Assembly (NCBI RefSeq): GCF_001696615.3
Contig: NZ_CP032279.1
Span: 62,001 to 126,000 of the forward strand
Direction: 5' to 3'
From: Acinetobacter sp. WCHAc010034
GTDB taxonomy: Bacteria; Pseudomonadota; Gammaproteobacteria; Pseudomonadales; Moraxellaceae
DNA length: 64,000 nucleotides
The notes below the pieces were generated by a model. The model was not told the origin of the DNA. It searched no databases and was given only the letters and a program-made list of their open reading frames with translations. The position numbers and the translations under genes are program-made. Shown here piece after piece: positions 24,672 to 42,680 of the stretch; position 1 is the first letter of the stretch; each line of letters starts with the position of its first letter.

Positions 24672-25382
24672 ATGAAAAAATATAAAGATGATCCAAACTC
24701 AAATCTTCATGAGCAGATCGAACTCGCTTTTAAACGGGGCTCTGATATTGCAGGTGTCTTGCACGGCATCAGGAAAATTCATCAAGGTAGCGTTGGTAAG
24801 CGTACCTCGTTATTTCCTAGTAAGAAAAATGCTGGAATGATACCTATTGAAAGTAATTTGGAATTAGCATATGCAATTGAATTAGAGAGAGATCTTTCTG
24901 TTGTTTCCTATCGGACACAAGCATTAAAAATCCAATTAAGCCAATATGAATCAAATTATCCTGACTTTTTAGTTAAATACTCTGATGGCCGTGTTGAAGT
25001 CCATGAAGTAAAACCAGATAAACATAATTTGACAGAAAAAAAAGCTAAGAAACACCATCGAATTAAAAAAATAATAAATTACCATAACATACAATATAAG
25101 GTAGTCGATAAAAATGATGTTGTGTTGGGATTTAACCAAACTGCATTATTATATTTTTATCAACGCATAGGAATACAATCGTGGACAGATCAGCTGATAG
25201 ATAAAGCAATAAAAGTCATTCCTACGCATGGTAAATTACTATTCACAGAAATACAAAAAATAATTGAAAACAATAGTTTGCCTGTTGATATAGCATATTA
25301 CTTAATATTTTATAAATATATTCCTATGCCAGTTTACATCCCAGCTCTAGTAGAAGCAGTCAGATCTCGGGGGCTACTATGA
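24672..25382 (+). CDS. tnsA: TnsA-like transposon endonuclease
   Basis: A 236-aa protein of the TnsA endonuclease family, which cuts the 5' ends of a Tn7-like element so that it moves by cut-and-paste. The restriction-enzyme-like core is visible: the Glu in IESNLELAYAIELERD, the Asp in YESNYPDFLVKYSDG and the ExK of VEVHEVKPDK. The C-terminal part is a predicted winged-helix region for contact with TnsC. Its stop overlaps the tnsB start by 4 bp (ATGA), so the two are coupled. No defect is visible. It corresponds to the gene called tniC in AbaR-type elements. Confidence 0.85.
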   Translation: MKKYKDDPNSNLHEQIELAFKRGSDIAGVLHGIRKIHQGSVGKRTSLFPSKKNAGMIPIESNLELAYAIELERDLSVVSYRTQALKIQLSQYESNYPDFLVKYSDGRVEVHEVKPDKHNLTEKKAKKHHRIKKIINYHNIQYKVVDKNDVVLGFNQTALLYFYQRIGIQSWTDQLIDKAIKVIPTHGKLLFTEIQKIIENNSLPVDIAYYLIFYKYIPMPVYIPALVEAVRSRGLL

Positions 25383-27292
25383 ACTCACATTTGTTAATTC
25401 CAAAGATAGGGTTAAGATTTTTACTAACTGGAACCTCCTTTGAAGTTAGTTGGACAAGTCAAGGGATGGTACGTTACTCAGCAATCACTGGGGGAAAAAT
25501 CTACTCAATTAGTATCGAAAAATTTACTGAAAAATATCATTCAGGTGAGATCAAATTAAATGGAGATTTATCTGACTCGGTATTAAGTAAGGAAAAAACT
25601 AGAGATCTATTGAGAAAACAAGAATACATTAAAACCGTGTTAAATTCAGTTAGTCATCCCTATTCACATCCTAATGTTTATAAGACAATTATCGATGTTT
25701 CAAGACGAATAAAGGACCATTCTCCTCCCTCACCCCGTTCAGTCATGAGATGGATAAAACTGTATTTAGATAATGACAAGGATCTCTATGTTTTAAATAA
25801 AATCAAGCCGGGAAATAAATTCCTTCGCTTTAATATTGAGATTGAACAAATTATAACTCTTGCAATTAGAGAGTGCTATCTAGAACCGAAAGAACATCGA
25901 AGCAGCATTGATGTTATAGCATTTATCAAAGCAAAAATGCTTGAGCAAGATATAAACGTTAATCAATGTCCATCATTACGTACTATTCAACGAAGAATTA
26001 AGCAGCTGGATCCGTACGTCGTAATACGAGCAAAAAAAGGCGCGAGAATCGCAAATACAACATTTAAAGCTGCTGGAATAAAAAAAGAAAGCCCTTTTGT
26101 AATGGCAATAGTCGAAATTGATACTCATTATTTAGACATATTTATTATCGATGAAGAATCAAAAGATGTTATGGGGCGTCCTTTTCTAACTTGTGCTATT
26201 GATATCTTTACTCGTTGTATTGTTGGATGGTATCTAAGTATGTTACCTGTTAATGCTTCGAGTACTCTTGCAACTTTTAAAGATATGTTGAATAGACCAC
26301 ATAATGGTCTTCCAGGTGGAATTCCTGCTTTAATTATCCCTGATAATGGTGTGGAATTTAAAAACAATACAATGAGCAAAATATGCTGTGAACTAGGCAT
26401 TACGATTCAGCCAGCTCAAAATAGAACACCAGACGATAAAGCTAAAATTGAACGTTTTTTTGGGACAATAACTCATAACCTGATTCAAAAGATAAGGGGG
26501 ACCACATTTTCAAATCCTCGAGAAAAGGCCGATTATGATCCACAAAAAAATGCTAGCATTACTTTAGCTAAATTAAGATCCTATCTAACTGAATGGATTG
26601 ACGAAATTTATCATAAGACTATACATTCAAGTATAAGTCGAGCTCCCATACTGGCATGGGGAGATGCTGTTAAAATAACCCCTCCTATTCTGCTCTCAAA
26701 ATTTCAGATTGATGTCATTACACGAAAAACTGTTAAAAGAAATATAAATCATGGTCAGGTTAAATTTCTGTATCTTACTTATAAATCTCACGTACTCACA
26801 ACATTGTCAGCTCAGGGGATACTTGAAGTTATCCTTATGGTGGATGAATCAAATCTAGAATATGTTTATTTTCAAGATCCATTTGATAGTAGTAATTATA
26901 TTCGAGCTGATTCAACTGATCCAACCTATACAAGAGGATTAACATTGTATGAACATGAGATGGTTCTCGAAGAAAAAAAGAAAATATCAAAAGTAGATAA
27001 AGAAAAATTGGGTGAACATGTAACAGATTTTGCACGATGGGCTTTACATCAGCGTATTCAATCGGAGGTTAAGTTAAATAAAAAAGCGAAACAACTTAAG
27101 ATTGAGCTGCCAAATCATTTAAAAGTTCTTTTGGAGGATCCAATAGAATTTAATCTAGATGAACAAAAAATAGATAGTTTCAGTACTTTACCGCTGATGT
27201 CATCACAAGCCAAAGACTTAGTTTTAGATAGTTTATCTGATAAGAAAGATAACTATTCAGATTTTTTGACTTGGGAGTTTGATGATGAATAG
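25379..27292 (+). CDS. tnsB: TnsB-like DDE transposase
   Basis: A 637-aa transposase with an integrase (rve) core and Mu-transposase-like C-terminal domain. It joins the 3' ends to target DNA and binds the end repeats. Catalytic residues are the Asp in AIVEIDTHYLDIF, the Asp in PALIIPDNGVEFKNN and the Glu in TPDDKAKIERFFGTI. Two N-terminal helix-turn-helix regions (about residues 75-200) precede the core and serve for end recognition. Length is as expected. It overlaps tnsC by 14 bp. Confidence 0.92.
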   Translation: MNSHLLIPKIGLRFLLTGTSFEVSWTSQGMVRYSAITGGKIYSISIEKFTEKYHSGEIKLNGDLSDSVLSKEKTRDLLRKQEYIKTVLNSVSHPYSHPNVYKTIIDVSRRIKDHSPPSPRSVMRWIKLYLDNDKDLYVLNKIKPGNKFLRFNIEIEQIITLAIRECYLEPKEHRSSIDVIAFIKAKMLEQDINVNQCPSLRTIQRRIKQLDPYVVIRAKKGARIANTTFKAAGIKKESPFVMAIVEIDTHYLDIFIIDEESKDVMGRPFLTCAIDIFTRCIVGWYLSMLPVNASSTLATFKDMLNRPHNGLPGGIPALIIPDNGVEFKNNTMSKICCELGITIQPAQNRTPDDKAKIERFFGTITHNLIQKIRGTTFSNPREKADYDPQKNASITLAKLRSYLTEWIDEIYHKTIHSSISRAPILAWGDAVKITPPILLSKFQIDVITRKTVKRNINHGQVKFLYLTYKSHVLTTLSAQGILEVILMVDESNLEYVYFQDPFDSSNYIRADSTDPTYTRGLTLYEHEMVLEEKKKISKVDKEKLGEHVTDFARWALHQRIQSEVKLNKKAKQLKIELPNHLKVLLEDPIEFNLDEQKIDSFSTLPLMSSQAKDLVLDSLSDKKDNYSDFLTWEFDDE

Positions 27293-28235
27293 TGATCAAA
27301 ATATTTTAGATAAAATTAATAAAATCATGCAACTAGTTATAGTTTCATCTGAATTTAATACAGCGTATAAAGGGATTTTACTTTGTGCAGAAAAAAATAA
27401 AACATACGCTCAGCCATTTGGTTGCTTGTTATTAGCAAAAGGTGGATTAGGAAAAACAACGCTCTGCCAAACTATTGTGAAAAAGCATCCCCCTACTTAT
27501 CGGACTGAGGAGGGATTTAAGAAGTCTATAGTCCCTGTGTTTTATATAGAAGTACCCTCACCAGCTACTGTGAAATCTGTTGCAAGTTGTATGCTAAATG
27601 CTTTGCATGATCCAGCTCCTTTTTCAGGGAGCACAGCGCAGATGAATCACAAACTTGTAGCACTGTTAAAAGTATGTGAAACAAGGCTGATATTTATGGA
27701 TGAATTTCATCATTTGTTTGATCTTCAAACTTCGACTAAACGAATGAATACAGTGGTATGCAACTGGATAAAAACCTTGGTAAATGAAACTGGTATTTGC
27801 TTTTGCCTAGTAGGTCTACCTGAGTTTGAGTCGTTATTGAAGATTGACAGTCAGCTTGCACGAAGATTCTCACAAACCTTTAAGCTGAATCAGCTTAGAG
27901 TTACAAAAATAGATGAACCAGGGACATTACATGCTTTCCTTCATCAGATTTCATTAAATATAGAAAAATATTTACATATTAAATTTGAACCTTCTTTAAC
28001 AAGTCAGCTATTAGCTTTACAGATTTATATAGCTACAAATGGTCATCATGCCTACCTAATGCTTCTTTTAGAAAATTGTCTTTTCCAAGTGATGAAAAAA
28101 GATAAATATATAATAACGATTGAAGAGTTTATTAAAGCATGGGATGACGGTATTACTTCCTATGTAAGTAAAACTAAATCAAATCCATTTCGTCTAGATA
28201 TGACTAGTATTTCTTCGAAAATAAGAAACTCTTAG
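27279..28235 (+). CDS. tnsC: TnsC/TniB-like AAA+ regulator ATPase
   Basis: A 318-aa AAA+ ATPase that assembles on target DNA and activates the transposase. Walker A is LLLAKGGLGKTTLCQ, Walker B is TRLIFMDEFHHLFDL and the arginine-finger region is DSQLARRFSQTFKL. Size and motif order match the shorter TniB/TnsC branch. It is overlapped by tnsB and followed 47 bp later by tniQ, the standard order. It appears intact. Confidence 0.9.
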   Translation: MMMNSDQNILDKINKIMQLVIVSSEFNTAYKGILLCAEKNKTYAQPFGCLLLAKGGLGKTTLCQTIVKKHPPTYRTEEGFKKSIVPVFYIEVPSPATVKSVASCMLNALHDPAPFSGSTAQMNHKLVALLKVCETRLIFMDEFHHLFDLQTSTKRMNTVVCNWIKTLVNETGICFCLVGLPEFESLLKIDSQLARRFSQTFKLNQLRVTKIDEPGTLHAFLHQISLNIEKYLHIKFEPSLTSQLLALQIYIATNGHHAYLMLLLENCLFQVMKKDKYIITIEEFIKAWDDGITSYVSKTKSNPFRLDMTSISSKIRNS

Positions 28236-29250
28236 CTCTGATTATATGTGTAATCATACTTTCATTAAGTAGAGTAAAAGCAATGGATAAGCCAAATTTT
28301 AATAGAAAATTTCTTGTCATCCCTATACCAGAAGAAGATGAATTTATTCTGAGTTTTTTAAACCGTATAAAAATAGCTAATGCTTACCCTTCACTAAATT
28401 CTGTTATAAAAACAATTTTTGATAAGAAGATAAATATTATTAATATAGTTAAAGGAAATTTTGACAAGTCGGTTTTTTACAAATTTACAGACTTAGCAGA
28501 AGATGACATAAATAAATTATGTATAACTAATAAAAACAATTTTTATATAGTTAGTTGTCTATTAATTTGTCCATATTGTATTAAGCAGAACTGTTATGTC
28601 TCTCTTACTGGATATAAAAGAAATGCGATATGCCCCACCCACTCGATTCCATATATAAGTAGGTGTCCCCACTGTAATAAGTTGTTAGATTGGAATGCTG
28701 AAAAAATTGAAATCTGTAAATTCTGCAAAATTTCTGTTTATTCAAATATTAGTGATTATATCGTTGAATATGATGAAAAAATAAGCCAAAATGATATTTT
28801 TATAATTTATAATGATTTTTTAGATTTGAAAGGTATATCGCCTAGCAGGAGTGAGCAGTATAGTTTAAATAATTTATATAAAGGATTAAGAAAGTCTATT
28901 GATTTTTTAATGCAACCCGATCTGTTTATGATCAAAGAGTTTAGAAAGTTATTCATAAGAACTGATATTCGATTTCCTAATTGTAAAGTAGTTAGATATG
29001 AATTTTTCTTATTAGTGCTTAGAATAATTAGATTGATAAATAGCATTTCTTTAATTGGTTTGAAAATTAGAGAGAGTCTTTCGAATATTGTGGGATTTGA
29101 GTTGGTTGAAAATATTTCTAATAATTACGACAAAGAGTTATATAACTTTTTGAATTATTACGATGAAAATTTTGGTCAAAGAAAAGTAGATTTAAATGTA
29201 AGAAAAATATTGAACACAACTGATGATGTTTCAGATTTAATAATTAATAA

Positions 29251-29982
29251 GGCTCTAGACTAGCAGATTTACACTTAATTTTACCTAATGAGGTTCCACA
29301 GCTCAGTTGCTAACTCATTAGGTTCCCTCATCCAACGCCATTCAGTTTCTTTAAGATGATAATCAAAGTACTCTTTTGATATGCCGTTAAACTTTGCTAG
29401 CCTTCTTTTACAAAAGCTCCAAAATGATTCTATTCCATTTATATGGCATTGTCCTCTAGCAAACTCATTTGCTCCGTGATTTACCCTAAAATGCTTTGAA
29501 TAACCCACATCAACAAGACCATTATAGCCACGCCATCCATCACTATAAATCACACTCTCAAGTGAAACTTTACCAATGATAACCTCTTGTAAAGTCTTCA
29601 TTTTACAGTCAGGTACGATTTCAGTATAGACGCGCCCATTACGTTCGAATATTCCAAATACTGGCTGTTTTAGAGTCCCACGACCACGCTTTAACTTTCC
29701 ATGAAACCCACGTTGCCTTTTCGCTCCAAAATAGCTTTCATCTACTTCTATTAAACCAACAAACTTAGCTCTTAAATCTGTTTGATGATCATAGATAGTT
29801 TCTCTAAAAAGCATGTACCAATAATTAATCGTATTACGATTTAAATTGAGTAATAAGGCTGTTTTGGAAGCAGGAATATCAACACAAAAGCATTGAATAA
29901 TTTTTTTAATCTTGTAGTGACTTAATTTACTGTTTTCTATCATTATTCTAGACTAACATAATTATTCTGCTAGTCTAGAGCC
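29251..29982. mobile_element. IS1595-family insertion sequence, 732 bp
   Basis: Terminal inverted repeats GGCTCTAGACTAGCAGA are identical at both ends for at least 17 bp. The element is flanked by the 7-bp direct repeat TTAATAA (the family norm is 8 bp). It holds one transposase gene, and it interrupts tniQ. Confidence 0.9.
29281..29943 (-). CDS. IS1595-family transposase (ISXO2-like)
   Basis: A 220-aa transposase of the short IS1016-type group of IS1595, without the N-terminal zinc ribbon found in longer members. The DDE residues are in GLIEVDESYFGAKRQRG (the family VDE motif), VIYSDGWRGYNGL and HINGIESFWSFCKRRL. The helix-turn-helix is in the first 50 residues. It fills the element and reads against tniQ. 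All motifs are intact, so the element should be mobile. Confidence 0.92.
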   Translation of the reverse strand: MIENSKLSHYKIKKIIQCFCVDIPASKTALLLNLNRNTINYWYMLFRETIYDHQTDLRAKFVGLIEVDESYFGAKRQRGFHGKLKRGRGTLKQPVFGIFERNGRVYTEIVPDCKMKTLQEVIIGKVSLESVIYSDGWRGYNGLVDVGYSKHFRVNHGANEFARGQCHINGIESFWSFCKRRLAKFNGISKEYFDYHLKETEWRWMREPNELATELWNLIR

Positions 29983-30399
29983 TTAATAAATATTTTGAAA
30001 AAAGCGATAAAAATAATACTATTAAATTAGAGGATTTTATTCATTTTTGTAAAAGTTTATCTAGAAATTTAAGCTTTAAATATATTAATGATGACTTTAT
30101 TTTTCTTCATGAATTTTTACCAAGCAAACAATTAGAATTGCTTGATAAAATATTTTATGGACCAACTTTTTTGTATAACTTTAATTATGAAGACGTTTTA
30201 TTAGGGGTTAAAATAAAAAGAAAAGATTTAAATTTGGTCGAAAATAGTCATTAAATTTAATTAAGAGTTATGTAAAAAATAGATACTATTTAAACTTTTT
30301 GATATCGCTTCGTGATTTATTCTGTTCAAGGTATTTTTTTCAAAACAAGTAAATATAAATAAATGGAACCCGCATAAAGAATGCGAGCTCTATATCGTC

Positions 30400-30564
30400 T
30401 TAGGGCTTTCTTGGTGGAGATGTAGTTTGTTGAGATGAATTTGATGTGTTCCCCCCAGAAGATCTGGTTGGTTGATAACCAAATTTATCTGAATCAGAAA
30501 TAGATCCAGAAGGTTTCGGACTGTAACTATCATTTATGTTTTCAGGATTTTTAATATTAGACAT
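30400..30564 (-). CDS. Small Pro/Ser-rich protein C with GYQP...PPRKP tail (54 aa)
   Basis: The third of three tandem small genes. The protein starts MSNIKNPENINDSYSPKPSG and ends with FGYQPTRSSGGNT and TTSPPRKP. It shares with its two upstream neighbours the motif GYQP, then 16-19 residues rich in Ser, Thr, Asn, Gln and Pro, then an almost identical C-terminus PP(K/R)KP. It also has a second SYSP motif matching GYSP of protein B. It starts 9 bp after protein B stops. No cysteine, membrane segment or folded domain is evident. A hairpin with CGCAT/ATGCG stem follows. Confidence 0.6.
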   Translation of the reverse strand: MSNIKNPENINDSYSPKPSGSISDSDKFGYQPTRSSGGNTSNSSQQTTSPPRKP

Positions 30565-30573
30565 TTCGATTCC

Positions 30574-30735
30574 TTAGGGTTTTTTAGGTGGAGATGTAGG
30601 TGCTTGAGGATTACTCGGGTTAGTTCCTTTCGATTTTTCTGGTTGATAACCTGCACCAGGCATTGGGTTGTGTGGTTTTATTACAGCTGGACTATAACCA
30701 TCACCAACAGGCACTCTTTGAGTTTTATCATTCAT
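30574..30735 (-). CDS. Small Pro-rich protein B with GYQP...PPKKP tail (53 aa)
   Basis: The middle gene of the trio. It begins MNDKTQRVPVGDGYSPAVIK, continues through PHNPMPGAGYQPEKSKG and ends APTSPPKKP. Compared with A it has an extra GYSP motif; with C it shares both motif positions, so B and C look like duplicates and A a shorter relative. It starts 19 bp after A stops and ends 9 bp before C, so all three are likely cotranscribed with the DUF6338 and JAB genes upstream. The sequence is too short and low in complexity for a beta-grasp fold. Confidence 0.6.
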   Translation of the reverse strand: MNDKTQRVPVGDGYSPAVIKPHNPMPGAGYQPEKSKGTNPSNPQAPTSPPKKP

Positions 30736-30754
30736 AATTAATCTCGCTCTAAAA

Positions 30755-30880
30755 TTAAGGTTTTTTAGGGGGTTGAGTATTCGACGAATTTTGTGAAGTC
30801 ACCTTTTGTGGTTGGTAACCTCTCGTTTGTAAGTCGCTTGGTATACTCTGAATATTAGTTTTTAAATCTTTAGTTGACAT
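30755..30880 (-). CDS. Small Pro/Gln-rich protein A with GYQP...PPKKP tail (41 aa)
   Basis: The first and shortest of three tandem small genes. It starts MSTKDLKTNIQSIPSDLQTR, then GYQPQKVTSQNSSN, and ends TQPPKKP. The start is 21 bp after the stop of the DUF6338 gene, in the same direction. The conserved C-terminal half (GYQP to PPKKP) and variable N-terminus suggest the tail is what a partner enzyme reads. The upstream gene for a JAB peptidase with the remnant of an E1-like domain makes conjugation or processing of these peptides a reasonable hypothesis. Confidence 0.6.
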   Translation of the reverse strand: MSTKDLKTNIQSIPSDLQTRGYQPQKVTSQNSSNTQPPKKP

Positions 30881-30901
30881 TGATAACTCCATAGATAAAT
30901 A

Positions 30902-31495
30902 TTAGGGATGTTGAAAAAATTCAATACTTTGAATGTCTTTGGATAATATTAGAATTCCTTCAGATTGCTCACGTATTCTTTCAAAACCACCCTCAGCACT
31001 AACCTCCCATGCTTTTTCTAAGTAGATTTGCGGATCTTCAGGGAAACTCGATGTAAATGATTTCTCTGAATATTCTCCTGCTAGTTTTTTCCCATCAGAT
31101 AATGTAACTAAAACAAAATATTCTTTTCTCTGAGAAAAAATATAGTCCCATGCCCTTGGTGTAGGATGAGGAGCATTCTTTTTAAAAAACTCCATATTTC
31201 TTAACTTTAACCATCCCCAAGCTAAAAATGCTGGAAAAACGAGCATGACAAATGAATAAAAGATAATTGTAAAAAAAGGACAAATAAAATCCCATTTTTT
31301 ACTAAAAATCATCATATAAATAAAAGGTCCTAATAAAGCATAGTTCAAACAACTATATGTAATGGCATCAATAATTAGCTTTGTACTATCTTTTTCATGA
31401 TTTGGGCACAGTAACGAATAGGTTTTTATTGAAATAAAGCCTGGAATTGCAAAAATAATAAATAGAACAAGCTTACTAGATTCAAAGATTTCCAT
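30902..31495 (-). CDS. DUF6338-family membrane protein
   Basis: A 197-aa protein. Three hydrophobic segments fill the first 110 residues (about 9-29, 42-66 and 70-96), followed by a soluble domain of about 95 residues (KEYFVLVTLSDGKKLAGEYS and a C-terminal IESIEFF-like strand, read here as DIQSIEFFQHP). The opening helix with FAIPGFISIKTYSLL is typical of DUF6338, a family of unknown function often seen in conflict-type gene neighbourhoods. It lies 14 bp after the JAB gene and 21 bp before small protein A. It may be a membrane effector or anchor of the same system. Confidence 0.65.
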   Translation of the reverse strand: MEIFESSKLVLFIIFAIPGFISIKTYSLLCPNHEKDSTKLIIDAITYSCLNYALLGPFIYMMIFSKKWDFICPFFTIIFYSFVMLVFPAFLAWGWLKLRNMEFFKKNAPHPTPRAWDYIFSQRKEYFVLVTLSDGKKLAGEYSEKSFTSSFPEDPQIYLEKAWEVSAEGGFERIREQSEGILILSKDIQSIEFFQHP

Positions 31496-31509
31496 AATAA
31501 TCCCTTATA

Positions 31510-32125
31510 TTAAAGATAAAAACTGACTTTATTAGAATTTATGATAGCCATTAAAACAGGATCATCTGGATCATCTATCTTATTTTGTAAATCGGTTAGT
31601 AATACTTCATCCAACGCACTGGGGCTTGTCGATACATGGTCAGGATGAGAATGCCAATCACCAATATAACGAACAATATGAGCTGTTTTTTCTCTACATA
31701 GGTCAATGTAATCTGAAAGGCCTTCACTTCCTCTTATGAAAGTGGTTGGTGTTGCAATGCTATCGTGAGGTGCCTCACAAACATCCACAATATAGATACT
31801 TTTTAATTTCTGGTCGATGTATCCTAAAATCACACCACCTGTTTCTTTCGGCAGTTCTTTTGCTCTAATTTCAAATAGTTTTTGATGAATAAAATTATCA
31901 TAAACTATTGTCCAGCCATTATCTAAGAGGACTTTCTTTTGAGGTGATACTTCTACAATGTGAGAATTTACTTGTCCTGTCGAATCATCTAAAGACCAAA
32001 CTTTGATCTGGGCTTGGTTATTGAGTCTTCCTAAACGAATTTGTCGTGCCAATATGGCGCTGTGTAATTTAATCAGCTCATCAGAAATAACCATTGAAAT
32101 ATCACGGCAACCTCCGCCTGTTTTA
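31510..32125 (-). pseudogene. E1/JAB fusion, N-terminal E1 domain deleted; JAB peptidase domain intact
   Basis: The C-terminal 120 residues are a JAB/MPN metalloprotease: the catalytic Glu in RAKELPKETGGVILGY and the JAMM residues in YIGDWHSHPDHVSTSPSALDE, split here as GDWHSHPDH and STSPSALDE. JAB enzymes remove ubiquitin-like or peptide tags. Upstream of the ATG at 32094 the frame stays open to the edge of the IS903-like element and reads KTGGGCRDIS, like the end of a ThiF/E1 domain; residues 1-60 also look like an E1 tail. The E1 part is not found beyond the element, which lacks a target duplication, so it was probably deleted. A shorter protein from 32094 may be made. Confidence 0.65.
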
Positions 32126-33163
32126 GGCTTTGTTGCACAAACCTATCTGTAAAGGCTTTTTCAGCGATATAATTTTCAAATGAAGAAGCCTATACACAAA
32201 ATCTATCGCACAACCAATTGGCCCGCATATAACCGAGCACTCATGAGTCGCGGAAATATTGCCATTTGGTTTGATCCTGCTACGCAATGGTATGCTCCAT
32301 CAAAAGGCAAACAAGGGCGAAATCAAACCTACTCCGACGCAGCTATCCAATGCTGCTTAATGATTAAATCCTTATTCCGTCTATCTTTACGTATGGTCAC
32401 TGGCTTTGTGCAAAGTCTGATTAAACTTTGTGGATTAAATTGGACCGCACCAGATTACAGTACGCTTTGCAGAAGACAAAAACATATTGATATTGCGATT
32501 AATTATCAAAAAAGCAGTGGTGGGCTTAACTTGCTGGTAGACTCTACCGGTCTAAAGTTTTTAGGTGAAGGTGAATGGAAAAGGAAGAAACATGGACCTG
32601 AATATCGTCGCCAATGGCGTAAACTTCATATTGGTATAGATGCTGAAACCCTTCAAATACGCGCCATTCAACTCACTACAAATAATGTGAGTGATTCACA
32701 AGTGCTTGGTGATTTACTCGATCAGATTCCACAAGATGAGCAGATTGACTCTGTTTATACCGATGGAGCTTATGACACCAAGCAATGCCGTCAGGTCATT
32801 GCAGATCGGCAAGCGCATGCGGTGATTCCACCTAGAAAAAATGCGAAACCATGGAAAGATACAAAGATCAGCTCGCTAGCGCGAAATGAATTACTTCGAA
32901 CAGTTAAACGTTTAGGCAGGACATTATGGAAAAAATGGTCCGGCTATCATTGCCGAAGTTTGGTCGAAACTAAGATGCATTGCATCAAATTATTGGGGGA
33001 TAAACTCAGTGCAAGAAAATTTGATAGCCAAGTCAATGAAATTCATGCACGTGTAGCAGTCCTCAACAGATTTACGGAATTAGGTCGACCACTTACCCAA
33101 GTTACGCCTTAAATTTGGCTCAATTAGGGGGCTTTGTATTTCAAATCTTTGTGCAACAAAGCC
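32126..33163. mobile_element. IS5-family (IS903-group) insertion sequence, 1038 bp
   Basis: Terminal inverted repeats GGCTTTGTTGCACAAA are identical at both ends, of the type seen in the IS903 group. The 9 bp to the left (CCTGTTTTA) and right (AAAAATTCC) differ, so there is no target duplication and the flanks were probably altered by deletion or recombination. A remnant of a related copy lies at 44039-44287 in the same orientation. Confidence 0.9.
32180..33112 (+). CDS. IS5-family transposase (IS903 group)
   Basis: A 310-aa DDE transposase of normal length. Typical blocks are NWPAYNRALMSRGNIAIW at the start, LLVDSTGLKFLGEGEW (first Asp), SVYTDGAYDTKQCR (second Asp) and YHCRSLVETKMHCIKLLG, where the Glu of the YREK-like motif is seen. 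It begins just inside the left terminal repeat and ends just before the right one. It is intact, so the element can probably transpose. Confidence 0.93.
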   Translation: MKKPIHKIYRTTNWPAYNRALMSRGNIAIWFDPATQWYAPSKGKQGRNQTYSDAAIQCCLMIKSLFRLSLRMVTGFVQSLIKLCGLNWTAPDYSTLCRRQKHIDIAINYQKSSGGLNLLVDSTGLKFLGEGEWKRKKHGPEYRRQWRKLHIGIDAETLQIRAIQLTTNNVSDSQVLGDLLDQIPQDEQIDSVYTDGAYDTKQCRQVIADRQAHAVIPPRKNAKPWKDTKISSLARNELLRTVKRLGRTLWKKWSGYHCRSLVETKMHCIKLLGDKLSARKFDSQVNEIHARVAVLNRFTELGRPLTQVTP

Positions 33164-33227: not shown

Positions 33228-33452
33228 TTATTCTTTAGTAATATTTAATTCCTGCCGTTTATTTAAGAGATCTATCTCTTCTTCAATAGTTGTTTCTCCA
33301 TTTAGTATTCTTCTTAATCTTGAATTTGAATTTTTTCTACAAGCATTGACTACCTTTTCTGGAAATACTTGTCGAGCATTCGAGTGCGAAATTAACCATG
33401 CACTTCTAATTTTCTTTTTTTCAAGAGTTAAGTTTTCAAAGGCTATTTGCAT
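33228..33452 (-). CDS. Small unrecognised protein after the ISL3-like transposase
   Basis: A 74-aa charged helical protein (MQIAFENLTLEKKKIRSAWL ... RRILNGETTIEEEIDLLNKR). Its ATG overlaps the transposase stop (TAATG), so translation is coupled. The family is not recognised. Accessory genes after ISL3-family transposases are known in some elements, but it could also be the last gene of the restriction operon. The IS903-like element ends 64 bp beyond its stop. Confidence 0.5.
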   Translation of the reverse strand: MQIAFENLTLEKKKIRSAWLISHSNARQVFPEKVVNACRKNSNSRLRRILNGETTIEEEIDLLNKRQELNITKE

Positions 33453-34801
33453 TATATGGTTGAAATTACTTCTTCATCTAAATATTCATCACCGCCATAC
33501 AATTCAACCAAGGTTGGAATATAAGCGCCATATTCCAACTTAGTATTCTCTTGCTTGGTTGGAAATGCAGTTAAACCCTCATAACCTTCGGTTGATTTTA
33601 ATGAAGATGATGGAGTCTTTAAAGTTGTAATAGATCGAGCAACTTTGTTATATAACATTTTTGCTCGAAGCACTTCAAAAGTATAGCCACGCCCCATTCG
33701 GTTCGCTACTCTTGTAATACCATTATGCCCCTCAGTATAAGCATTGGTAATTCTTATTGGCGCATCCCAATAGGTGAATATATCCTCAAAGTGATTATTC
33801 ACAGTTTTAGCAACGTCACGGAAAGACTTTAAATATTTGGGAATACTACTTTCCCATTCATGAAACCTTTGTATGGCATTGTCTTTGGTTGTTGCTTCAT
33901 AAATATTATAAAACTGCTCTTTGAGGTCATAAGCTTCCTTAAATTCAGGATGCCATTTTTCTAAATTTCCTAAAATTCTTTGTTGATCTTCGGTCAATGA
34001 ATTTGGTCGTCTAAGCAGTATCCACCGTAAATGTTTTTTCATATTCAATCGGGCATCACGATCCAAACTACTTTGTAAAGCTTTATGTTCAGTGTCTAAG
34101 GCTTCACTTACCATTCTCACTACATGAAACTTATCAATAACCAACTTGGCATTTGGTAGGTGCAGACGGAATGACTTTTTGAAGGGTCGCCACATATCAC
34201 TACAAATCCATTCTACTTTTTCTGCATCAGGCAGTTTGGCAAAGTATGGTATCAATGTATCTTGAGTTCTTTCAGGCAACATATCATATAAGCTGTTCAT
34301 GGCAAGGTTGGTGATGACACAGCGATATGTTCCCATCAATTTAAGTTCATCAATACCCATAATCGTTGGAGTTTCAAACTTAATATCTCGTTCTAATTCC
34401 TCCACGAAATCGAGCGTAATGTTTTTAATGGTGTTCACGACTACACCCGTATCTTCGGCAAGCTGCGTAAAGGTTCGATCTAAGCAACGCTTGCGTACTT
34501 GCTGAATCAGCCGATGGGTCGCTCTACGTTTTTCATCCAAGAAGCTAAGTTGATGGGTAATCATGCTTTTGCATTCAGAACAGCGATAGCGTGTTCGTAT
34601 CACCTCAATTTTTACTGGTTGCATCTGCAAAGGGGTATCAGCAAAATGATTGATACGCTGACCGTGCTTATATAAGCGTCCACCGCATTCAGGGCATGTT
34701 TGCAAATGCTCACCGCTTGGCTGTACGGTAATCATAATACAGCCATCTTCATTACGGTAATCTATCGGTTGTACACCTTCCAGTTGCAGAATATCAATCA
34801 T
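33452..34801 (-). CDS. ISL3-family transposase, last-but-one gene of the type I RM operon
   Basis: A 449-aa ISL3-type protein. It has an N-terminal zinc ribbon (TCPECGGRLYKHG, then RYRCSECKSM), a helix-turn-helix, and the DDE core with TIMGIDELKLMG, VEWICSDMWRPFKKSF with KLVIDKFHVVRMV, and ITNAYTEGHNGITRVANRMG. It starts only 12 bp after the hsdR stop with a CGGAG ribosome site, in the same direction. Terminal inverted repeats typical of ISL3 are not visible on either side. It is either an insertion that has lost its ends or a transposase-derived gene kept with the restriction genes. Confidence 0.8.
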   Translation of the reverse strand: MIDILQLEGVQPIDYRNEDGCIMITVQPSGEHLQTCPECGGRLYKHGQRINHFADTPLQMQPVKIEVIRTRYRCSECKSMITHQLSFLDEKRRATHRLIQQVRKRCLDRTFTQLAEDTGVVVNTIKNITLDFVEELERDIKFETPTIMGIDELKLMGTYRCVITNLAMNSLYDMLPERTQDTLIPYFAKLPDAEKVEWICSDMWRPFKKSFRLHLPNAKLVIDKFHVVRMVSEALDTEHKALQSSLDRDARLNMKKHLRWILLRRPNSLTEDQQRILGNLEKWHPEFKEAYDLKEQFYNIYEATTKDNAIQRFHEWESSIPKYLKSFRDVAKTVNNHFEDIFTYWDAPIRITNAYTEGHNGITRVANRMGRGYTFEVLRAKMLYNKVARSITTLKTPSSSLKSTEGYEGLTAFPTKQENTKLEYGAYIPTLVELYGGDEYLDEEVISTI

Positions 34802-34813
34802 TCCAATACTCCG

Positions 34814-37800
34814 TTATGTTAGACGATGCACATCAATGGTTTCACCATCTTTAAGCAATTTATACAGCACCTTGATCACGTTCTGCATCGCTTGTGCATC
34901 GGTCTTGAGCAACAATGCTGATAAGTCTTGATGTGAGGTCAGAGCTTGAATAATTGCGCCTTTCGTTGCCGATGGCAAATTACCTTGCAAGGCTGTGGAT
35001 TCAGGATTATTTTCAATCTGAGCCATAACTACATCGTTATTTCGTAGAATAGTTACTAAATGATTGATATAAACCACTTGTTCTTCACGGGTGGAAATAT
35101 CGCCAAAGGTCTGTGCAATTAGCTCGATCACTTCTTTGAGATAAGTCATTTTGGTTGGCTGCACATCGCCATTGGCTGTACCTTGGATCGGAACTAAAGG
35201 TTGGGGTTCATCCGCTTCAGGATGGTCTGTATCATCGGTTTTAAGTTTCTTTTTAAAGATGCCAAAGCCAGTCAATACCAAGCCTGAAATATCAATTTCT
35301 TTAGCAGACATACCATTTAATCGTTTGGATAAGAGCTTGGTAAATGCCGAGAAGTTTTCAAGTTCAGGATCGCCAAAGTCAATAAGCTGTGCCACATAGG
35401 AATAAATACGGCTAAACTTATCCAAATTGCCCTTAAAGCGCATCAAGGTTTGTAATTCTACGTCTAACTGCTTGCGCTCAAATTCCGCTTTTTCTGCGCC
35501 TTCATCATTACCGTCTGCTTTGGCTTGATCAAATGCGGTTTCCTGTAGCTCAATCGCCTGTTTGAGCATTTTCAGCTTTTGGTTAAATAGTCGGGCGACA
35601 CGATCAGTTGCTTTAAACAGGTCGGGATGCGTGGTTTCTTTGAAATCATGATTGCTAATATCGCGAATAGTTTTAAAACGAGCTGCTTTAAACTCCTCCA
35701 AATCATCCTCGGTAATCAGATCAAGTTCTTCAATATTGTCTTTGATGGTATAAACCACATTCGGGTCTTGTACATCCACTATTTTTGCCCCGTTGTCGTA
35801 CTTCTTGAAGCACTTTAAAATCCATTCAGGGTCATTTACAAAGTCAATCACAAAGGTTTGATCTTTGCCTGTGGTGGTGCGGTTTAAGCGTGACAAGGTT
35901 TGTACCACTTCAACTTCATTGGCAATGACTTTATCAAGGTACATAGCGCATAGTTTGGGTTGGTCAAAGCCTGTTTGGAATTTATTCGCCACCACCATTA
36001 AACGATATTCAGGGCGGTCAAATGCAATGCGTAAATCAGAATTAGGTGCATCGGCATTCATATTGGCTTCGGTAAATTCAGCATCTTCACCGACCTTAAA
36101 TAGCGCACCATTTTCTGTATCGTCATCAGCTTCATGGCTGATCTGCTTGCCCGTAAGTTTGCCTGAGAATGCCACCAAGACACGGTAGGCACTGTATTCA
36201 GGGTTATCTTCAATATATTTTTCCAAGGCAATTTTATAACGTGCTGCCGCAGGGCGAGAACTGGTCACAATCATCGCTTTGGCTTGACCATTCAGTAAGT
36301 TGGCGACATTGTGGTGAAAGTGTTGAATAATAAACTGCACCTTTTGCGTGACATTGGTCGCGTGTAAAGCCATCCAACGGGCTAAAGCTTTCTTGGCTGC
36401 TTTAGAATTGACCCGTTTATCATCATCAACAGCTTCACCGCCAAGTTTAAAAGCTGTTTTATAAGGCACGTAGCCTTGCAATACATCTAAAATAAAGCCT
36501 TCTTCAATGGCTTGACGTTGCGGATAGAGATGGAAGGATTCAGGCAAGTTGTCATCACTGGCAGGCTCACCATTTTTGGTACGGCCAAACAGCATTTTAG
36601 TCGAGTGTTTTGGGGTTGCAGTAAAGGCAAAGTGACTGATGTTTTTGGACTGTACACGGGCTTTTTGAATCTGCTCAAGCAATTCCTCAACAGTCAGATT
36701 CGCCATTGCTTCACCCGACTGCAATGCCAATGTCGCTTGCAGTTTAGATGCTGTTGAGCCTGTTTGCGAGGTATGCGCTTCATCAATCACAATACCGTAG
36801 TTACGGTCGCTTAAACTGGTATTGGTCAGAATCGCTTCCATCACATGCGGGAAAGTCTGAATGGTCACAATAATGATCTGTTTATTGGATAACAGTGCAT
36901 CTTCAAGCTGTTTGCTTTTCGATTTGCCTGCATGTTCTTTGTCATCACGGTTAATTGCAGCAATTAAGCCTTTCTGATGGTCTAATTGTTGAATGGCTTC
37001 CTGTAACTGGTCATCCAGTACCGTTCTGTCTGTCACCACAATGACGGAGTTATAAAACGGTGTACCGTCATTGTGACGCAAACGCACCAGTGAATGACAC
37101 ACCCAAGAGATTGTCGATGTTTTGCCTGAGCCTGCACTGTGTTCACACAGATAATTCAGTCCTACGCCTTTTTCTTGCACATCGGCAATGATTTTATTCA
37201 CCGCATCAAACTGATGGTAACGCGGGAAAATCAGGCGTTCCTGTACCGTCCAATTACCATATAGATCGACTTTGTTTTTCTTTTCCACATAGACAAAGTT
37301 ATGGAAAATTTTCAGCCAATTATCACGTTGGCAAACATAATCCCAAAAATACGCCACAGGATAATCCTCACCTTTGGCTGCATCCGCAGGAGGGTTGCCT
37401 GCATGTCCCTGATTACCTTTATTAAACGGCAAGAAATAGGTGCTTTCACCATCTAAAGCGGTGGTCATGGCAATTTCAGATTCAGACAAGGCAAAATGCA
37501 CAATTGCACCACGCTTGGGTGTTAACAATGGCTCTTTACGTCTTGTTTTAGGGTCTATCGGCTTACGGTCATTTTTATACTGTTCAATGGCATCTTCTAA
37601 AGACTGGTTAAACTCGGTCTTAATTTCTACCGTTGCCATTGGCAAGCCATTAATAAAGAACACAAGGTCCAAAATGCCTGCATCTTTGGATGGATGATAT
37701 TTGAGTTGTGGGACAACACGTAGAATATTGGCGTTATAGCGGTCAATGACGGCTTGATTGCGTCCATCTTCGGGTGCGCTTTCACTGAGGTCGATTGTGC

Positions 37801-38098
37801 CTGCGCCCGCCATGCTAAAGCCATTACGGAAGATATGGATTGTGCCTTTCTTATTCAGTTCATCATCCAAGCGGTCGATGATGCGTTTTTCGGTATTACT
37901 ACCATTCAGTGCTTGCAGTTTTTCCCACTTTTCAGGCTGTGTAGCTTGAATCCATGTGATTAAATCTTCGGGATAGAGTGCATATTCGGTATGATAATTT
38001 TTACTTTGCCCAACCACCCAACCTTGCGCTTGCAGTTTTTGCACAATATAGGCTTCTAAGTGACTTTCGTAATGGGCTTTGTCTGCCAAAATATTCAT
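34814..38098 (-). CDS. hsdR: Type I restriction enzyme, R subunit
   Basis: A 1094-aa motor and nuclease subunit. The ATG at 38098 is preferred; the frame is open 21 codons further, overlapping the Abi gene. The N-terminal nuclease has AGILDLVFFINGLPMATVEIK (split: AGILDLVFF and ATVEIK, the PD...ExK core). The helicase has Walker A HSAGSGKTSTISW, DEAH box GIVIDEAHTSQTG and motif VI-type QTLSRLNRTT. The C-terminal helical region contacts HsdM. It works with HsdM and HsdS to translocate and cut unmodified DNA such as phage genomes. Confidence 0.95.
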   Translation of the reverse strand: MNILADKAHYESHLEAYIVQKLQAQGWVVGQSKNYHTEYALYPEDLITWIQATQPEKWEKLQALNGSNTEKRIIDRLDDELNKKGTIHIFRNGFSMAGAGTIDLSESAPEDGRNQAVIDRYNANILRVVPQLKYHPSKDAGILDLVFFINGLPMATVEIKTEFNQSLEDAIEQYKNDRKPIDPKTRRKEPLLTPKRGAIVHFALSESEIAMTTALDGESTYFLPFNKGNQGHAGNPPADAAKGEDYPVAYFWDYVCQRDNWLKIFHNFVYVEKKNKVDLYGNWTVQERLIFPRYHQFDAVNKIIADVQEKGVGLNYLCEHSAGSGKTSTISWVCHSLVRLRHNDGTPFYNSVIVVTDRTVLDDQLQEAIQQLDHQKGLIAAINRDDKEHAGKSKSKQLEDALLSNKQIIIVTIQTFPHVMEAILTNTSLSDRNYGIVIDEAHTSQTGSTASKLQATLALQSGEAMANLTVEELLEQIQKARVQSKNISHFAFTATPKHSTKMLFGRTKNGEPASDDNLPESFHLYPQRQAIEEGFILDVLQGYVPYKTAFKLGGEAVDDDKRVNSKAAKKALARWMALHATNVTQKVQFIIQHFHHNVANLLNGQAKAMIVTSSRPAAARYKIALEKYIEDNPEYSAYRVLVAFSGKLTGKQISHEADDDTENGALFKVGEDAEFTEANMNADAPNSDLRIAFDRPEYRLMVVANKFQTGFDQPKLCAMYLDKVIANEVEVVQTLSRLNRTTTGKDQTFVIDFVNDPEWILKCFKKYDNGAKIVDVQDPNVVYTIKDNIEELDLITEDDLEEFKAARFKTIRDISNHDFKETTHPDLFKATDRVARLFNQKLKMLKQAIELQETAFDQAKADGNDEGAEKAEFERKQLDVELQTLMRFKGNLDKFSRIYSYVAQLIDFGDPELENFSAFTKLLSKRLNGMSAKEIDISGLVLTGFGIFKKKLKTDDTDHPEADEPQPLVPIQGTANGDVQPTKMTYLKEVIELIAQTFGDISTREEQVVYINHLVTILRNNDVVMAQIENNPESTALQGNLPSATKGAIIQALTSHQDLSALLLKTDAQAMQNVIKVLYKLLKDGETIDVHRLT

Positions 38099-38115
38099 GC
38101 TTTTTCCCCTAATTT

Positions 38116-39153
38116 TTAATTCTGTTGTAATGCCTGTTGCCAAAACGGGTCTTGATGCCATAACTCAGGCATTCCCATATTGGCTTTAGAGAGTGATGGA
38201 TACTGCTCAATTAAATCTTTGAGTCGTTTTGCCCATGTTGAATTTGGGCTGATCTTATAAAGTAAGGTTTGTATTGCCACCAAAAGCATATAGGTACGCT
38301 TCTCATAGCGAATCGCGGTATTACTCAATATGATTGGTTGTTGAAGCCATTGAATTGCATTTGAAGTTGGAATCTTAATGCTGCGCCCATGTTCTTTATT
38401 CCATAGTCGGCTATGGTGGGCGCAAATATTGCGTACATCATTCAGCGTTTTCAGCCATGATTCTAAAACTTCGGCATGTAATCCTAAGTTTTGAGCAATC
38501 TGTTTTTTGGCTTGAGTCGATTTGAGTCCAACATAAAGATGGCTGAGTTCGCCCCAAGTCAGCATTTCGATCATCATCCATGAAGGCGGTAATTTCGGGC
38601 TGTCATATTTAGATAAGTAGTGGCGTAAAAAATTTTCTTTACGCACTTTATCTTTCAACACATCTTTGTCAGCTTGCGAGAGTGGACGTTTATCAATGGC
38701 TTTCTCGTCACGTATCAAGCGTTCTTTTTCATCTAATAATTGCCGTTCAATACTGGCAAGCAAGCGCATGTGGGCATAGTTGTGGCTAAAATTCTGTTCA
38801 TCGGTATACCAAAAGGCATTACCCGATTGATCGCACAACACATTGCAAATTTGCGCCCGTATTGCAACCTCTATACGCTCAATTGCATCCATGACCAAGA
38901 GCCTTAGCTCCCGATCAAAGATATACAGATTCAGTACATCATCAAATGAAGTATTGGCTTTGAACTGATGCAATACGTTTGAATTGGCTGTAACCGTTTG
39001 CTGAAAAGGAATGGTATAGGCAGATAGGCGATAGTAGCCAATAAAGCTCAGATAACGGTCTGCTCTTGCAAGATCAGGAATGAGCAATCCACGTTGCTGC
39101 CATATTTGAATATGGTCTTGGTTGCTTTTTGCCTGTTTAATAAATTGAACCAT
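38116..39153 (-). CDS. Abi_2-family (AbiD/AbiF-like) abortive infection protein
   Basis: A 345-aa protein of the Abi_2 family. Characteristic blocks are the N-terminal HIQIWQQRGLLIPD, then RYLSFIGYYRLSAYTIPF and YIFDRELRLLVMDAIERIEV. The C-terminal NDVRNICAHHSRLWN is the R-x4-H motif of a HEPN ribonuclease fold. Abi_2 proteins stop growth on phage infection, and many are regulated by an adjacent RM system. It sits between hsdS and hsdR in the same direction, 17 bp from hsdR, a position that recurs in type I RM operons and suggests a backup response when restriction fails. Confidence 0.85.
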   Translation of the reverse strand: MVQFIKQAKSNQDHIQIWQQRGLLIPDLARADRYLSFIGYYRLSAYTIPFQQTVTANSNVLHQFKANTSFDDVLNLYIFDRELRLLVMDAIERIEVAIRAQICNVLCDQSGNAFWYTDEQNFSHNYAHMRLLASIERQLLDEKERLIRDEKAIDKRPLSQADKDVLKDKVRKENFLRHYLSKYDSPKLPPSWMMIEMLTWGELSHLYVGLKSTQAKKQIAQNLGLHAEVLESWLKTLNDVRNICAHHSRLWNKEHGRSIKIPTSNAIQWLQQPIILSNTAIRYEKRTYMLLVAIQTLLYKISPNSTWAKRLKDLIEQYPSLSKANMGMPELWHQDPFWQQALQQN

Positions 39154-39293
39154 AGCAATTTCTCAGGCAAAAAAAACCTGCCGATTTGTGCATGAACAAG
39201 CGAACTTGAACATAGGCATGGCAGGTATGTTGGTGAGAATAATGACAAAAGCACTTATTGAAGTAAAGCTAAATTTACAATTTTGTAAAAAAT

Positions 39294-40586
39294 TCATGCG
39301 GTGAACTCCCTTACGTCAATTTTACCTGTAACCGCATGGGAGATAATTGAAGAACGATATTCTTTAAGTTTTTCGATTAAAGATTTTTGTTTATAAGTCA
39401 GATTATCAATTTTATTCTTTTCTTTATCCAAATATTCAACAATTTCTTGCTGTTCTGACTTTGGAGGTAATACTAATTTAACCTGAGAAAAGTTATTAAA
39501 ACGTAATGCTTGACCATCACGTATTAAGTTAGAAGTTGATTGTAAAGATTGAATATACCTTGGGGTTTTGAATAAATATTTGAAATATTCAGTATTAATA
39601 AGCGATAAATCAGGTTTCAACATTACATAAGCTGAACTAATTGAACCCTCTAAAGAACTTAGTTCAAGTCCACCTTGAAAGCTACGCATACTAATTACAA
39701 AATCATTTGGTCGCACTTTTTTTAATATTTCAGGATTTTTCATAACAACCATAACACGACCATTTTCGGCTATGAATTCATCTTGATAGATAATGCCATG
39801 CTTTTGCGATGCTGTTAGCTGTTTATCAGCATTAACAGCTTTTTCTTTTCGTTCAGTAAAATAAAATTTACTTGGAATAACATCCCAATGCTTAGGCACG
39901 TCCCCCAACCATTCCACACCACTGTCTTTCATCGGTGCATTAGGATTTAAACCTTTAGTGACAGCATGAGAAATAATCGACTTACGCTGTTCTTCCAAAA
40001 GCTCAATTAACTTTTCTTGCTTGGTAATGAGGTTGTCAATTCGGGTGGTTTCAGTGTCGAGAAATGAAACGATTTTATGTTGATCAGATTTAGGTGGTAA
40101 AACCAATTTTACTTGAGAAAAGTTATTAAAACGTAGGGCTTGTCCATCACGTATTAAATTCGATGTTGATTGTAAGGATTGAATATATCTTGGGGTTTTG
40201 AATAAATACTTAAAATATTCTATATCTACTACATGTAAATTTGGCTTTAACATCACATAAGCTGAACTAATTGAACCTTCTAAATAGCTAAGCTCAAGCC
40301 CCCCTTGGAAGCTACGCATACTAATTACAAAATCATTTGGTCGCACTTTTTTTAATATTTCAGGATTTTTCATCACAACCATGACACGACCATTTTCAGC
40401 CATGAAGTCTTCTTGAAAAACAATTCCATACTTTTGAGAAGCAGTAAGTTGTTTATCTTTATTTTCTGCTTTCTCTTTACGTTCAATAAAATAAAACTTA
40501 CTTGGAATAACAGACCAATGCTTAGGTACATCACCTAACCATTCCACACCACTTGGTTTATAACTTGGGTATTGCTTAAATTGCAT
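39294..40586 (-). CDS. hsdS: Type I restriction-modification specificity subunit with duplicated TRD
   Basis: A 430-aa specificity subunit. It has two target-recognition domains (about residues 12-175 and 225-388), each followed by a coiled-coil spacer (for example ITKQEKLIELLEEQRKSIIS). Unusually, the two domains are nearly identical: both contain SGVEWLGDVPKHW, ENGRVMVVMKNPEILKKVRP, FVISMRSFQGGLEL and IRDGQALRFNNFSQVKLVLP. Each domain normally reads a different half-site, so this enzyme should recognise a symmetric split site. Normal length, no frameshift. It is 2 bp after hsdM. Confidence 0.95.
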   Translation of the reverse strand: MQFKQYPSYKPSGVEWLGDVPKHWSVIPSKFYFIERKEKAENKDKQLTASQKYGIVFQEDFMAENGRVMVVMKNPEILKKVRPNDFVISMRSFQGGLELSYLEGSISSAYVMLKPNLHVVDIEYFKYLFKTPRYIQSLQSTSNLIRDGQALRFNNFSQVKLVLPPKSDQHKIVSFLDTETTRIDNLITKQEKLIELLEEQRKSIISHAVTKGLNPNAPMKDSGVEWLGDVPKHWDVIPSKFYFTERKEKAVNADKQLTASQKHGIIYQDEFIAENGRVMVVMKNPEILKKVRPNDFVISMRSFQGGLELSSLEGSISSAYVMLKPDLSLINTEYFKYLFKTPRYIQSLQSTSNLIRDGQALRFNNFSQVKLVLPPKSEQQEIVEYLDKEKNKIDNLTYKQKSLIEKLKEYRSSIISHAVTGKIDVREFTA

Positions 40587-40588
40587 TT

Positions 40589-42592: not shown

Positions 42593-42596
42593 TTTG

Positions 42597-42680
42597 TTTT
42601 TCAACCTTATTTTGCAATAGTTAAATATTATGCAATTAAAGCAGATTTTTCAACCTTGAAATGCAATATTTAAAAATTTC
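42597..42680. repeat. Two 30-bp repeats upstream of hsdM
   Basis: TTTTTCAACCTTATTTTGCAA (21 positions from 42597; core AACCTTATTTTGCAA) and TTTTTCAACCTTGAAATGCA (from 42646) continue into TTTAAA-like AT-rich ends. The start-to-start spacing is 49 bp. Two more copies follow the next gene, at 43433-43505. Confidence 0.55.

Follow-up and report, generated by a model that had tools for sequence, protein, structure and literature searches.

DUF6338 membrane protein genes and a widespread family of adjacent short proline-rich peptides, as seen from an Acinetobacter locus

The locus and its described counterparts

The closest described counterpart of the locus analyzed here lies in Pseudomonas stutzeri ATCC 14405, where, according to a 2023 proteomics report, a DUF6338 gene is followed in a putative operon by genes for three short, proline-rich small ORF-encoded proteins (SEPs), which were detected at the protein level with 44 to 114 peptide-spectrum matches (PMC10433244). 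That report describes the SEPs as not conserved beyond P. stutzeri and as possible products of de novo genes (PMC10433244). We found the same layout, one DUF6338 gene and three short proline-rich proteins, in a 64,000-nucleotide (nt) stretch of Acinetobacter sp. WCHAc010034 (contig NZ_CP032279.1, positions 62,001 to 126,000; "the window" below); contrary to the view taken in the P. stutzeri study, the peptide family proved to be widespread and tied to DUF6338. Judging by architecture rather than by sequences, we infer that the P. stutzeri SEPs belong to this family. If they do, our data argue against a de novo origin: by their layout, these proteins seem to come from an old family that has spread horizontally.

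Parts of other described systems stand beside such genes. A JAB fragment in the window corresponds to the last quarter of cap2_3 from the anti-phage 6A-MBL system. The ThsB-like TIR gene and the caspase gene of TIR-caspase systems, which we take to be those named type IV Thoeris, abut the module (DUF6338 plus its peptide genes) in Proteus, Photobacterium, and Lysobacter; to our knowledge, the described TIR-caspase pair includes neither DUF6338 nor the peptides, which would thus be an extra component. In Mesorhizobium, a SMODS nucleotidyltransferase gene and a two-transmembrane (2TM) effector gene, as in CBASS with a SLATT/2TM effector, directly precede DUF6338 and its peptide, but no SMODS gene stood next to DUF6338 in the other neighborhoods scanned. 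Beyond PMC10433244, DUF6338 was not named in the literature searched (which leaves most subscription journals outside), and PF19865 was named nowhere in it; from that literature and from Pfam, PADLOC, PHROGs, and NCBIfam, we judge the DUF6338/peptide gene pair to be undescribed.

With slightly better than even confidence, we interpret DUF6338 and its one to four short peptides as a mobile membrane module, often attached to defense systems, in which the peptides would bind an Sm-like barrel and set its activity. The finding gives a Pfam domain without an assigned function a partner in a peptide family that is widespread yet often left unannotated, and it suggests an Sm-like protein anchored in the membrane, with proline-rich ligands of its own, near several anti-phage systems. 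The peptides, which carry G[YW]xP motifs and end in a PP(K/G)x tail, are probably disordered. The features of the window locus are as follows:

30400..30564, minus strand: small GYxP/PP-tail protein 3, 54 amino acids (aa)
30574..30735, minus strand: small GYxP/PP-tail protein 2, 53 aa
30755..30880, minus strand: small GYxP/PP-tail protein 1, 41 aa (45 aa from an upstream ATG)
30902..31495, minus strand: DUF6338 membrane protein with three predicted membrane helices and a predicted C-terminal Sm/LSm-like barrel (Pfam, AlphaFold2, fold searches)
31510..32124, minus strand: remnant of the E2-E1-JAB protein cap2_3, residues 561 to 764 of 764 (JAB ORF, 31510-32094)

The small genes are 19 bp (ORF1/ORF2) and 9 bp (ORF2/ORF3) apart, and their products of 41 to 54 aa, rich in Pro, Ser, Thr, Gln, and Asn, each carry GYQP and a C terminus of the form PP(K/R)KP. 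An earlier reading of this DNA (the original prediction) had proposed three minus-strand genes of these sizes, spacings, and motifs, close to a DUF6338 gene and a JAB ORF with an E1-derived end, and it was borne out by coordinates, motifs, and Pfam. Its further claim that the N termini differ holds in part: the heads are variable, but ORF2 and ORF3 have an earlier (G/S)YSP motif in common, so the heads in the window are partly related. The 41-codon start of ORF1 reads ATG-TCA with GGAG upstream, and by eye two of the three small-ORF starts have a good Shine-Dalgarno-like sequence. A profile search of the window proteins gave zero Pfam matches for the three peptides, and a comparison with PHROGs gave none for peptides.

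Linkage, selection, and spread of the gene pair

DUF6338 loci were gathered without regard to peptides, from 56 named-genome loci, 52 viral-contig loci, plasmids, Escherichia coli, and other genomes. Collapsing 127 of them at 90% identity gave 97 clusters, with E. coli records outside the count; the first scan yielded no usable DUF6338 for one locus, L119. A detector that looks immediately downstream, on the same strand, for short ORFs containing PPP runs or G[YWFH]xP motifs was positive in 86 of the 97 DUF6338 loci versus 9 of 744 controls (other ORFs of 200 aa or more), and a narrower first rule (a GxxP motif plus a proline-rich end, with the start within 120 nt) gave 72/97 versus 10/744. 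Four of the 11 loci missed by the detector show visible peptide relatives. Positive loci carried one peptide in 64 cases, two in 11, three in 9, and four in 2; these counts, and the total of 121 catalogued ORFs, are upper bounds, because counted ORFs overlap in 5 of the 97 loci (L040, L070, L076, L122, and L123). This linkage is far beyond chance, and the peptides belong with the DUF6338 gene and not with E1/JAB.

A far branch of DUF6338 in Gammaproteobacteria (L131-L133) has a different, equally proline-rich partner (SNPPPP...PPPPPPKK). One locus (L065, 8001-9586) carries tandem DUF6338 genes from the two distant branches, each with its own peptide type: the first, of the GYQP branch, is broken in frame and is accompanied by a GYQP peptide, and the second, of the far branch, by an SNPPPP peptide.

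The three small ORFs of the window are real proteins under purifying selection. The pooled peptide ratio of nonsynonymous to synonymous divergence (dN/dS) was 0.051/0.223 between the window and A. soli, 0.040/0.199 between two other Acinetobacter loci, and 0.229/1.079 in a third pair; five pairs were run, of which two were near or beyond saturation, and the figures come from the other three, in which single ORFs ranged from about 0.04 to 0.44. DUF6338 was under stronger constraint than the peptides. A dN/dS of about 0.2 upholds the original prediction insofar as it called the small frames genuine conserved proteins with a shared tail and variable heads beside a membrane protein. We give practically no credence to the alternative that the ORFs arose by chance or de novo and have no function, a view proposed for the P. 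stutzeri operon. Although the ORFs are short, low in complexity, and often unannotated, a de novo or noncoding origin was rejected on conservation, namely, the linkage described above, the dN/dS values, and 331 matches to the peptide profile in the protein database; mass-spectrometric detection in one species, described in the P. stutzeri report, argues in the same direction (PMC10433244).

Three is the exact motif number in 113 of the 120 database relatives listed, with NEGYQP - KGYQP - GGYQP - PP(K/G)x as the typical layout; the profile (A3), derived mostly from members with several motifs, favors matches of that kind. Cytosolic proline-rich peptides of the antimicrobial type, which bind ribosomes or chaperones, offer another comparison, with DUF6338 as an immunity or export partner. 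The proline content of the catalogue (16.8%) would suit them, and the P. stutzeri report mentions an antimicrobial role as a possibility (PMC10433244). We nevertheless find this highly improbable: inspection of the catalogued sequences by eye revealed no leader, tails are commonly acidic (PPGDE), and the three-motif rule among the relatives listed suits partner binding better. Ribosome stalling at PPP was also considered and is not supported, since many tails lack PPP.

Tail type is inherited with the DUF6338 lineage. On a quick DUF6338 tree of 82 rows (82 of the 86 peptide-bearing clusters passed length limits; 14 rows with unclassified tails formed their own group), tail class (PPKKP, PPGDE, PPKER, PPKKK/R, PPxGSG, or other) changed 14 times, versus a shuffled mean of 47.4; the PPKKK/R group alone was weakly clustered (6 changes; shuffled mean, 9.6). 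Host groups are mixed on this tree, for example, a Chloroflexota metagenome-assembled genome beside Halomonas, which fits horizontal spread. Occurrence is patchy: a DUF6338 match exceeded the cut-off in 8 of 369 genomes from the class, and 4 of 175 genomes from the genus contained the gene. Loci with the pair span several phyla, prophages, plasmids, and Tn7-like elements. Among 14 control genomes, Haloferax volcanii alone had a DUF6338 match above the cut-off.

The E1/JAB fragment and the 6A-MBL system

The E1/JAB fragment is a leftover of the known anti-phage 6A-MBL system: only residues 561 to 764 of cap2_3 remain, and tblastn at 1e-5 matched neither the MBL gene nor the WYL gene anywhere in the window (MBL was not sought in the rest of the genome). 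Its E1-derived frame runs to about 32124 and includes TGGGCRDIS, the JAB ORF matches Prok-JAB (PF14464), and by tblastn the window keeps the last 204 of the 764 residues of an E2-E1-JAB relative. Homology to intact 6A-MBL loci ends at 32125, beside an insertion sequence (IS) transposase gene, and cap2_3 was matched once in the whole genome. The block is intact in A. ursingii plasmid pRIVM0002 and in A. venetianus RAG-1, where it consists, in order, of a WYL regulator, an MBL-fold enzyme, a 764-aa E2-E1-JAB protein, DUF6338, and three peptides; the complete E1-JAB that the original prediction had proposed seeking in relatives is thus present in Acinetobacter. This 764-aa protein has Prok-E2_A, ThiF, and Prok-JAB domains. 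The intact Acinetobacter relative scored 598 bits against NCBIfam NF058523 (anti-phage 6A-MBL cap2_3; cut-off, 320), and its MBL partner scored 427 bits against NF058524 (6A-MBL MBL-fold enzyme; cut-off, 220). In two copies on A. ursingii RIVM_C011601 plasmids (L008 and L128), several block genes appear split, perhaps through sequencing errors rather than decay.

The original prediction took the peptides for tags or substrates that E1/JAB conjugates and removes at the membrane. In its favor, some Acinetobacter loci have a run of consecutive, codirectional genes for an intact E2-E1-JAB protein, for DUF6338, and for the peptides. Tblastn over the DUF6338 loci compared, however, detected the 6A-MBL protein in no more than part of the Acinetobacter loci and in L019, where it is encoded on the opposite strand. 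In the stretch examined, DUF6338 and peptides occur without E1/JAB in A. pittii p2_005046 and in A. baumannii pA52-2. E2-E1-JAB relatives occur in 313 plasmid records (208 at 80% coverage) versus 20 for DUF6338; at least six accessions are in both lists, as judged from the best 40 rows of the longer one, and at least 293 of the 313 records have no DUF6338 match, so that at most 20 can hold one. At the plasmid level, then, E1-JAB usually occurs without the small genes, a pattern that the original prediction had itself named as counting against it. E1-type activation (adenylation) normally uses a C-terminal glycine. None of the window peptides has one, all three ending in -KP, and a terminal glycine occurs in 2 of the 121 catalogued ORFs. 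The tag hypothesis was rejected on linkage, the peptides tracking DUF6338 and not E1/JAB, and we give it very little credence. Nor is the DUF6338/peptide pair a core part of 6A-MBL: most plasmid records with a cap2_3 relative have no DUF6338 match.

Predicted architecture, genomic context, and possible roles

The window DUF6338 protein scored 127.7 bits against Pfam PF19865 (cut-off, 26.5). Its predicted architecture is three membrane helices plus an Sm/LSm-like small beta-barrel: AlphaFold2 models of DUF6338 have three membrane helices followed by a barrel resembling Sm/LSm proteins, and a small beta-barrel of the Sm type with an N-terminal helix, an Sm/LSm feature, was found in these models. 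By predicted fold, the C-terminal domain is thus like Sm/LSm/Hfq proteins; unlike them, its barrel would be fused to three membrane helices, and it is paired with proline-rich peptides and no known RNA. Three membrane helices plus an Sm-like domain is presumably the architecture of MscS-like channels as well, and DUF6338 may be such a channel; MscS had no Pfam match and was absent from the fold-search matches listed. The window DUF6338 protein has no Sm match in Pfam, and DUF6338 gave no NCBIfam match and only one weak match in PHROGs (E, 0.058). One protein, P0114, is a natural fusion of DUF6338 and the tail.

A known or candidate defense gene lies close to DUF6338 in 15 of the 43 loci scanned, where the neighbors scanned were mostly the longest ORF close by rather than a random sample; weak or annotation-only cases (L011, L030, L035, L040, L053, L124, and E. 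coli L258) were not counted as positive. The defense-positive loci are as follows:

TIR-caspase: L009, L021, L039
TIR: L020, L044
Caspase: L056
IetAS: L019
Retron-type reverse transcriptase (RT): L022
UG17-like RT: L038
Type IIG enzyme: L032
Type I R subunit, two genes away: L059
AAA ATPase near AriA/HEC: L047
PDC-S31, peptide not found: L064
SMODS plus 2TM effector: L121
6A-MBL: L005

The TIR-caspase association is the strongest case of defense context; the pair lies downstream of the module in Proteus and in Lysobacter maris L039 and upstream in Photobacterium L021, whereas a caspase gene is present at all in only 55 of 274 genomes of the class. An island in Castellaniella (L019) combines IetAS, DUF6338 plus peptide, and, nearby on the opposite strand, a 6A-MBL set. 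In L030 (7230-7892), the gene immediately upstream of DUF6338 encodes a membrane protein of the 8xMP family (PF24838).

Proximity to defense genes could also reflect shared hotspots, in which case the module would be a phage-borne moron for superinfection exclusion, DUF6338 altering the envelope, with the peptides as subunits, so that competing phages are kept out. In E. coli the module is prophage-borne, either close to an integrase and a TIR gene (once also SIR2) or at the end of P2/186-like elements (type assigned by eye); these positions and the 52 viral-contig loci favor such a role. It is harder to reconcile with the recurrent, tight TIR-caspase association in both orders and with operon-like placement after IetS and after the CBASS effector, and we consider it unlikely, if plausible.

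Physical pairing of DUF6338 with its peptides is likely, as is a defense or moron role; both the binding of the peptides to the protein and the role in defense we infer. In the reading that we prefer, a mobile module with peptides acting on an Sm-like barrel, this barrel would face the cytosol and probably assemble into a ring. Cytosolic peptides would be multivalent ligands docking on it through their GYxP motifs and tail and, once docked, would set the activity of the membrane protein, either holding it inactive or building its working form. The module would then be an accessory, probably membrane-acting part of mobile anti-phage defense or moron regions, attached to varied sensors (TIR-caspase, IetAS, CBASS, RT, restriction, and 6A-MBL) or standing alone.

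Several observations weigh against this reading. No clear defense neighbor was seen in 28 of the 43 loci, and housekeeping genes lie beside several. The peptide was not found in 7 of the 97 loci, one of which (L064) adjoins a candidate defense gene. A looser rule accepting any proline-rich ORF fired in 77/97 loci and also in 74/744 controls; proline alone is common, and because of these control hits we attribute the signal to the motif, not to proline alone. The Sm-like assignment relies on predicted models (mean pLDDT confidence scores, 77 and 82), Foldseek gave no PDB match at an E of 0.001 or better (best, 0.019) and its list for the DUF6338 model contains non-Sm folds too, and the best fold-search Z is little above values reachable by unrelated models. 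Classic Sm motifs are not evident: by eye, the DUF6338 consensus has glycines at Sm-comparable places, but FDxxhN and RG, which we take to be the Sm1/Sm2 motif residues, are not kept. Charges of the two short DUF6338 loops alone do not settle the topology. PADLOC had 0 families for DUF6338 at E up to 0.1; the fusion P0114 comes from a single metagenomic contig of 1060 bp, and a search for further DUF6338-tail fusions found none beyond it. Finally, the tail may have a further partner, since phage genes carry it without DUF6338 in the record.

These phage genes were found with a DNA pattern for PPPKKP plus stop, which matched 117 viral-contig stretches, 80 of which were examined (89 matches). 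DUF6338 was in the same stretch for 21 of 22 PPPKKP-ending ORFs with at least two GxxP motifs; in the exception (L167), the second motif lies inside a membrane segment. Among 28 short PPPKKP-ending ORFs without DUF6338 nearby, 11 have GYQP in the last 35 residues, versus 0 of 4218 other short ORFs, although some of the 11 are close kin; tail ORFs without DUF6338 occur in L143, L150, L167, L175, L177, L181, L186, L188, L205, L208, and L211. Their N termini differ (Cys-rich, a single membrane segment, and others). The tail is portable and used independently by phages, since phage ORFs with differing heads carry the same tail without DUF6338; none of 14 such phage records had a DUF6338 match, and none of these records was rated 90% complete. 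Several of the ORFs lie near lysozyme-, spanin-, or terminase-like genes by eye, and an annotated lysozyme lies near the homologue of the L211 ORF in Aeromonas phage vB_AsaM-56.

We hypothesize a gating mechanism that could accommodate such tails, as mimics engaging the same barrel, but regard it as quite unlikely. DUF6338 would be an Sm-ring membrane effector closed by the peptides; caspase, the subtilase IetS, JAB, or other sensors would remove or displace them and so open it, in a gasdermin-like manner with a separate, disordered brake. If the peptides do gate the membrane protein, this would be a new mode of control for a bacterial membrane effector, and the unlinked phage tail genes would offer a direct test of counter-defense.

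L175 and L188, from related phages, combine different heads with almost identical tails and occupy comparable positions. Another dialect of the tail (NPPPP...KP.P.P.PPPKKP) occurs in phage ORFs L144, L158, L201, L204, and L208; it is similar to the peptide that accompanies the far DUF6338 branch (L131-L133), and L208 has both dialects in one protein.

As for its surroundings, the window module is cargo beside a Tn7-like transposon, the adjacent 6A-MBL system having been lost except for its 3' end. The TniQ-like gene, named by position, had no Pfam or NCBIfam match, and the Abi-like protein had none in NCBIfam. The neighboring features are as follows:

24672..28235, plus strand: Tn7-like transposition genes (TnsA-like, TnsB-like, TnsC/TniB-like), beside the module
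28283..30251, plus strand: TniQ-like gene in two pieces (28283-29260 and 29982-30251)
29281-29943, minus strand: IS1595-type transposase ORF, splitting the TniQ-like gene
32180..33112, plus strand: transposase-like ORF of an IS (by eye, no family search made)
33452-34801: ISL3-family transposase gene (Pfam), between the module and the type I restriction cluster
34814-42604: type I restriction-like R, S, and M genes (names by eye)
38116-39153: 345-aa Abi-like protein (by eye), between the R and S genes
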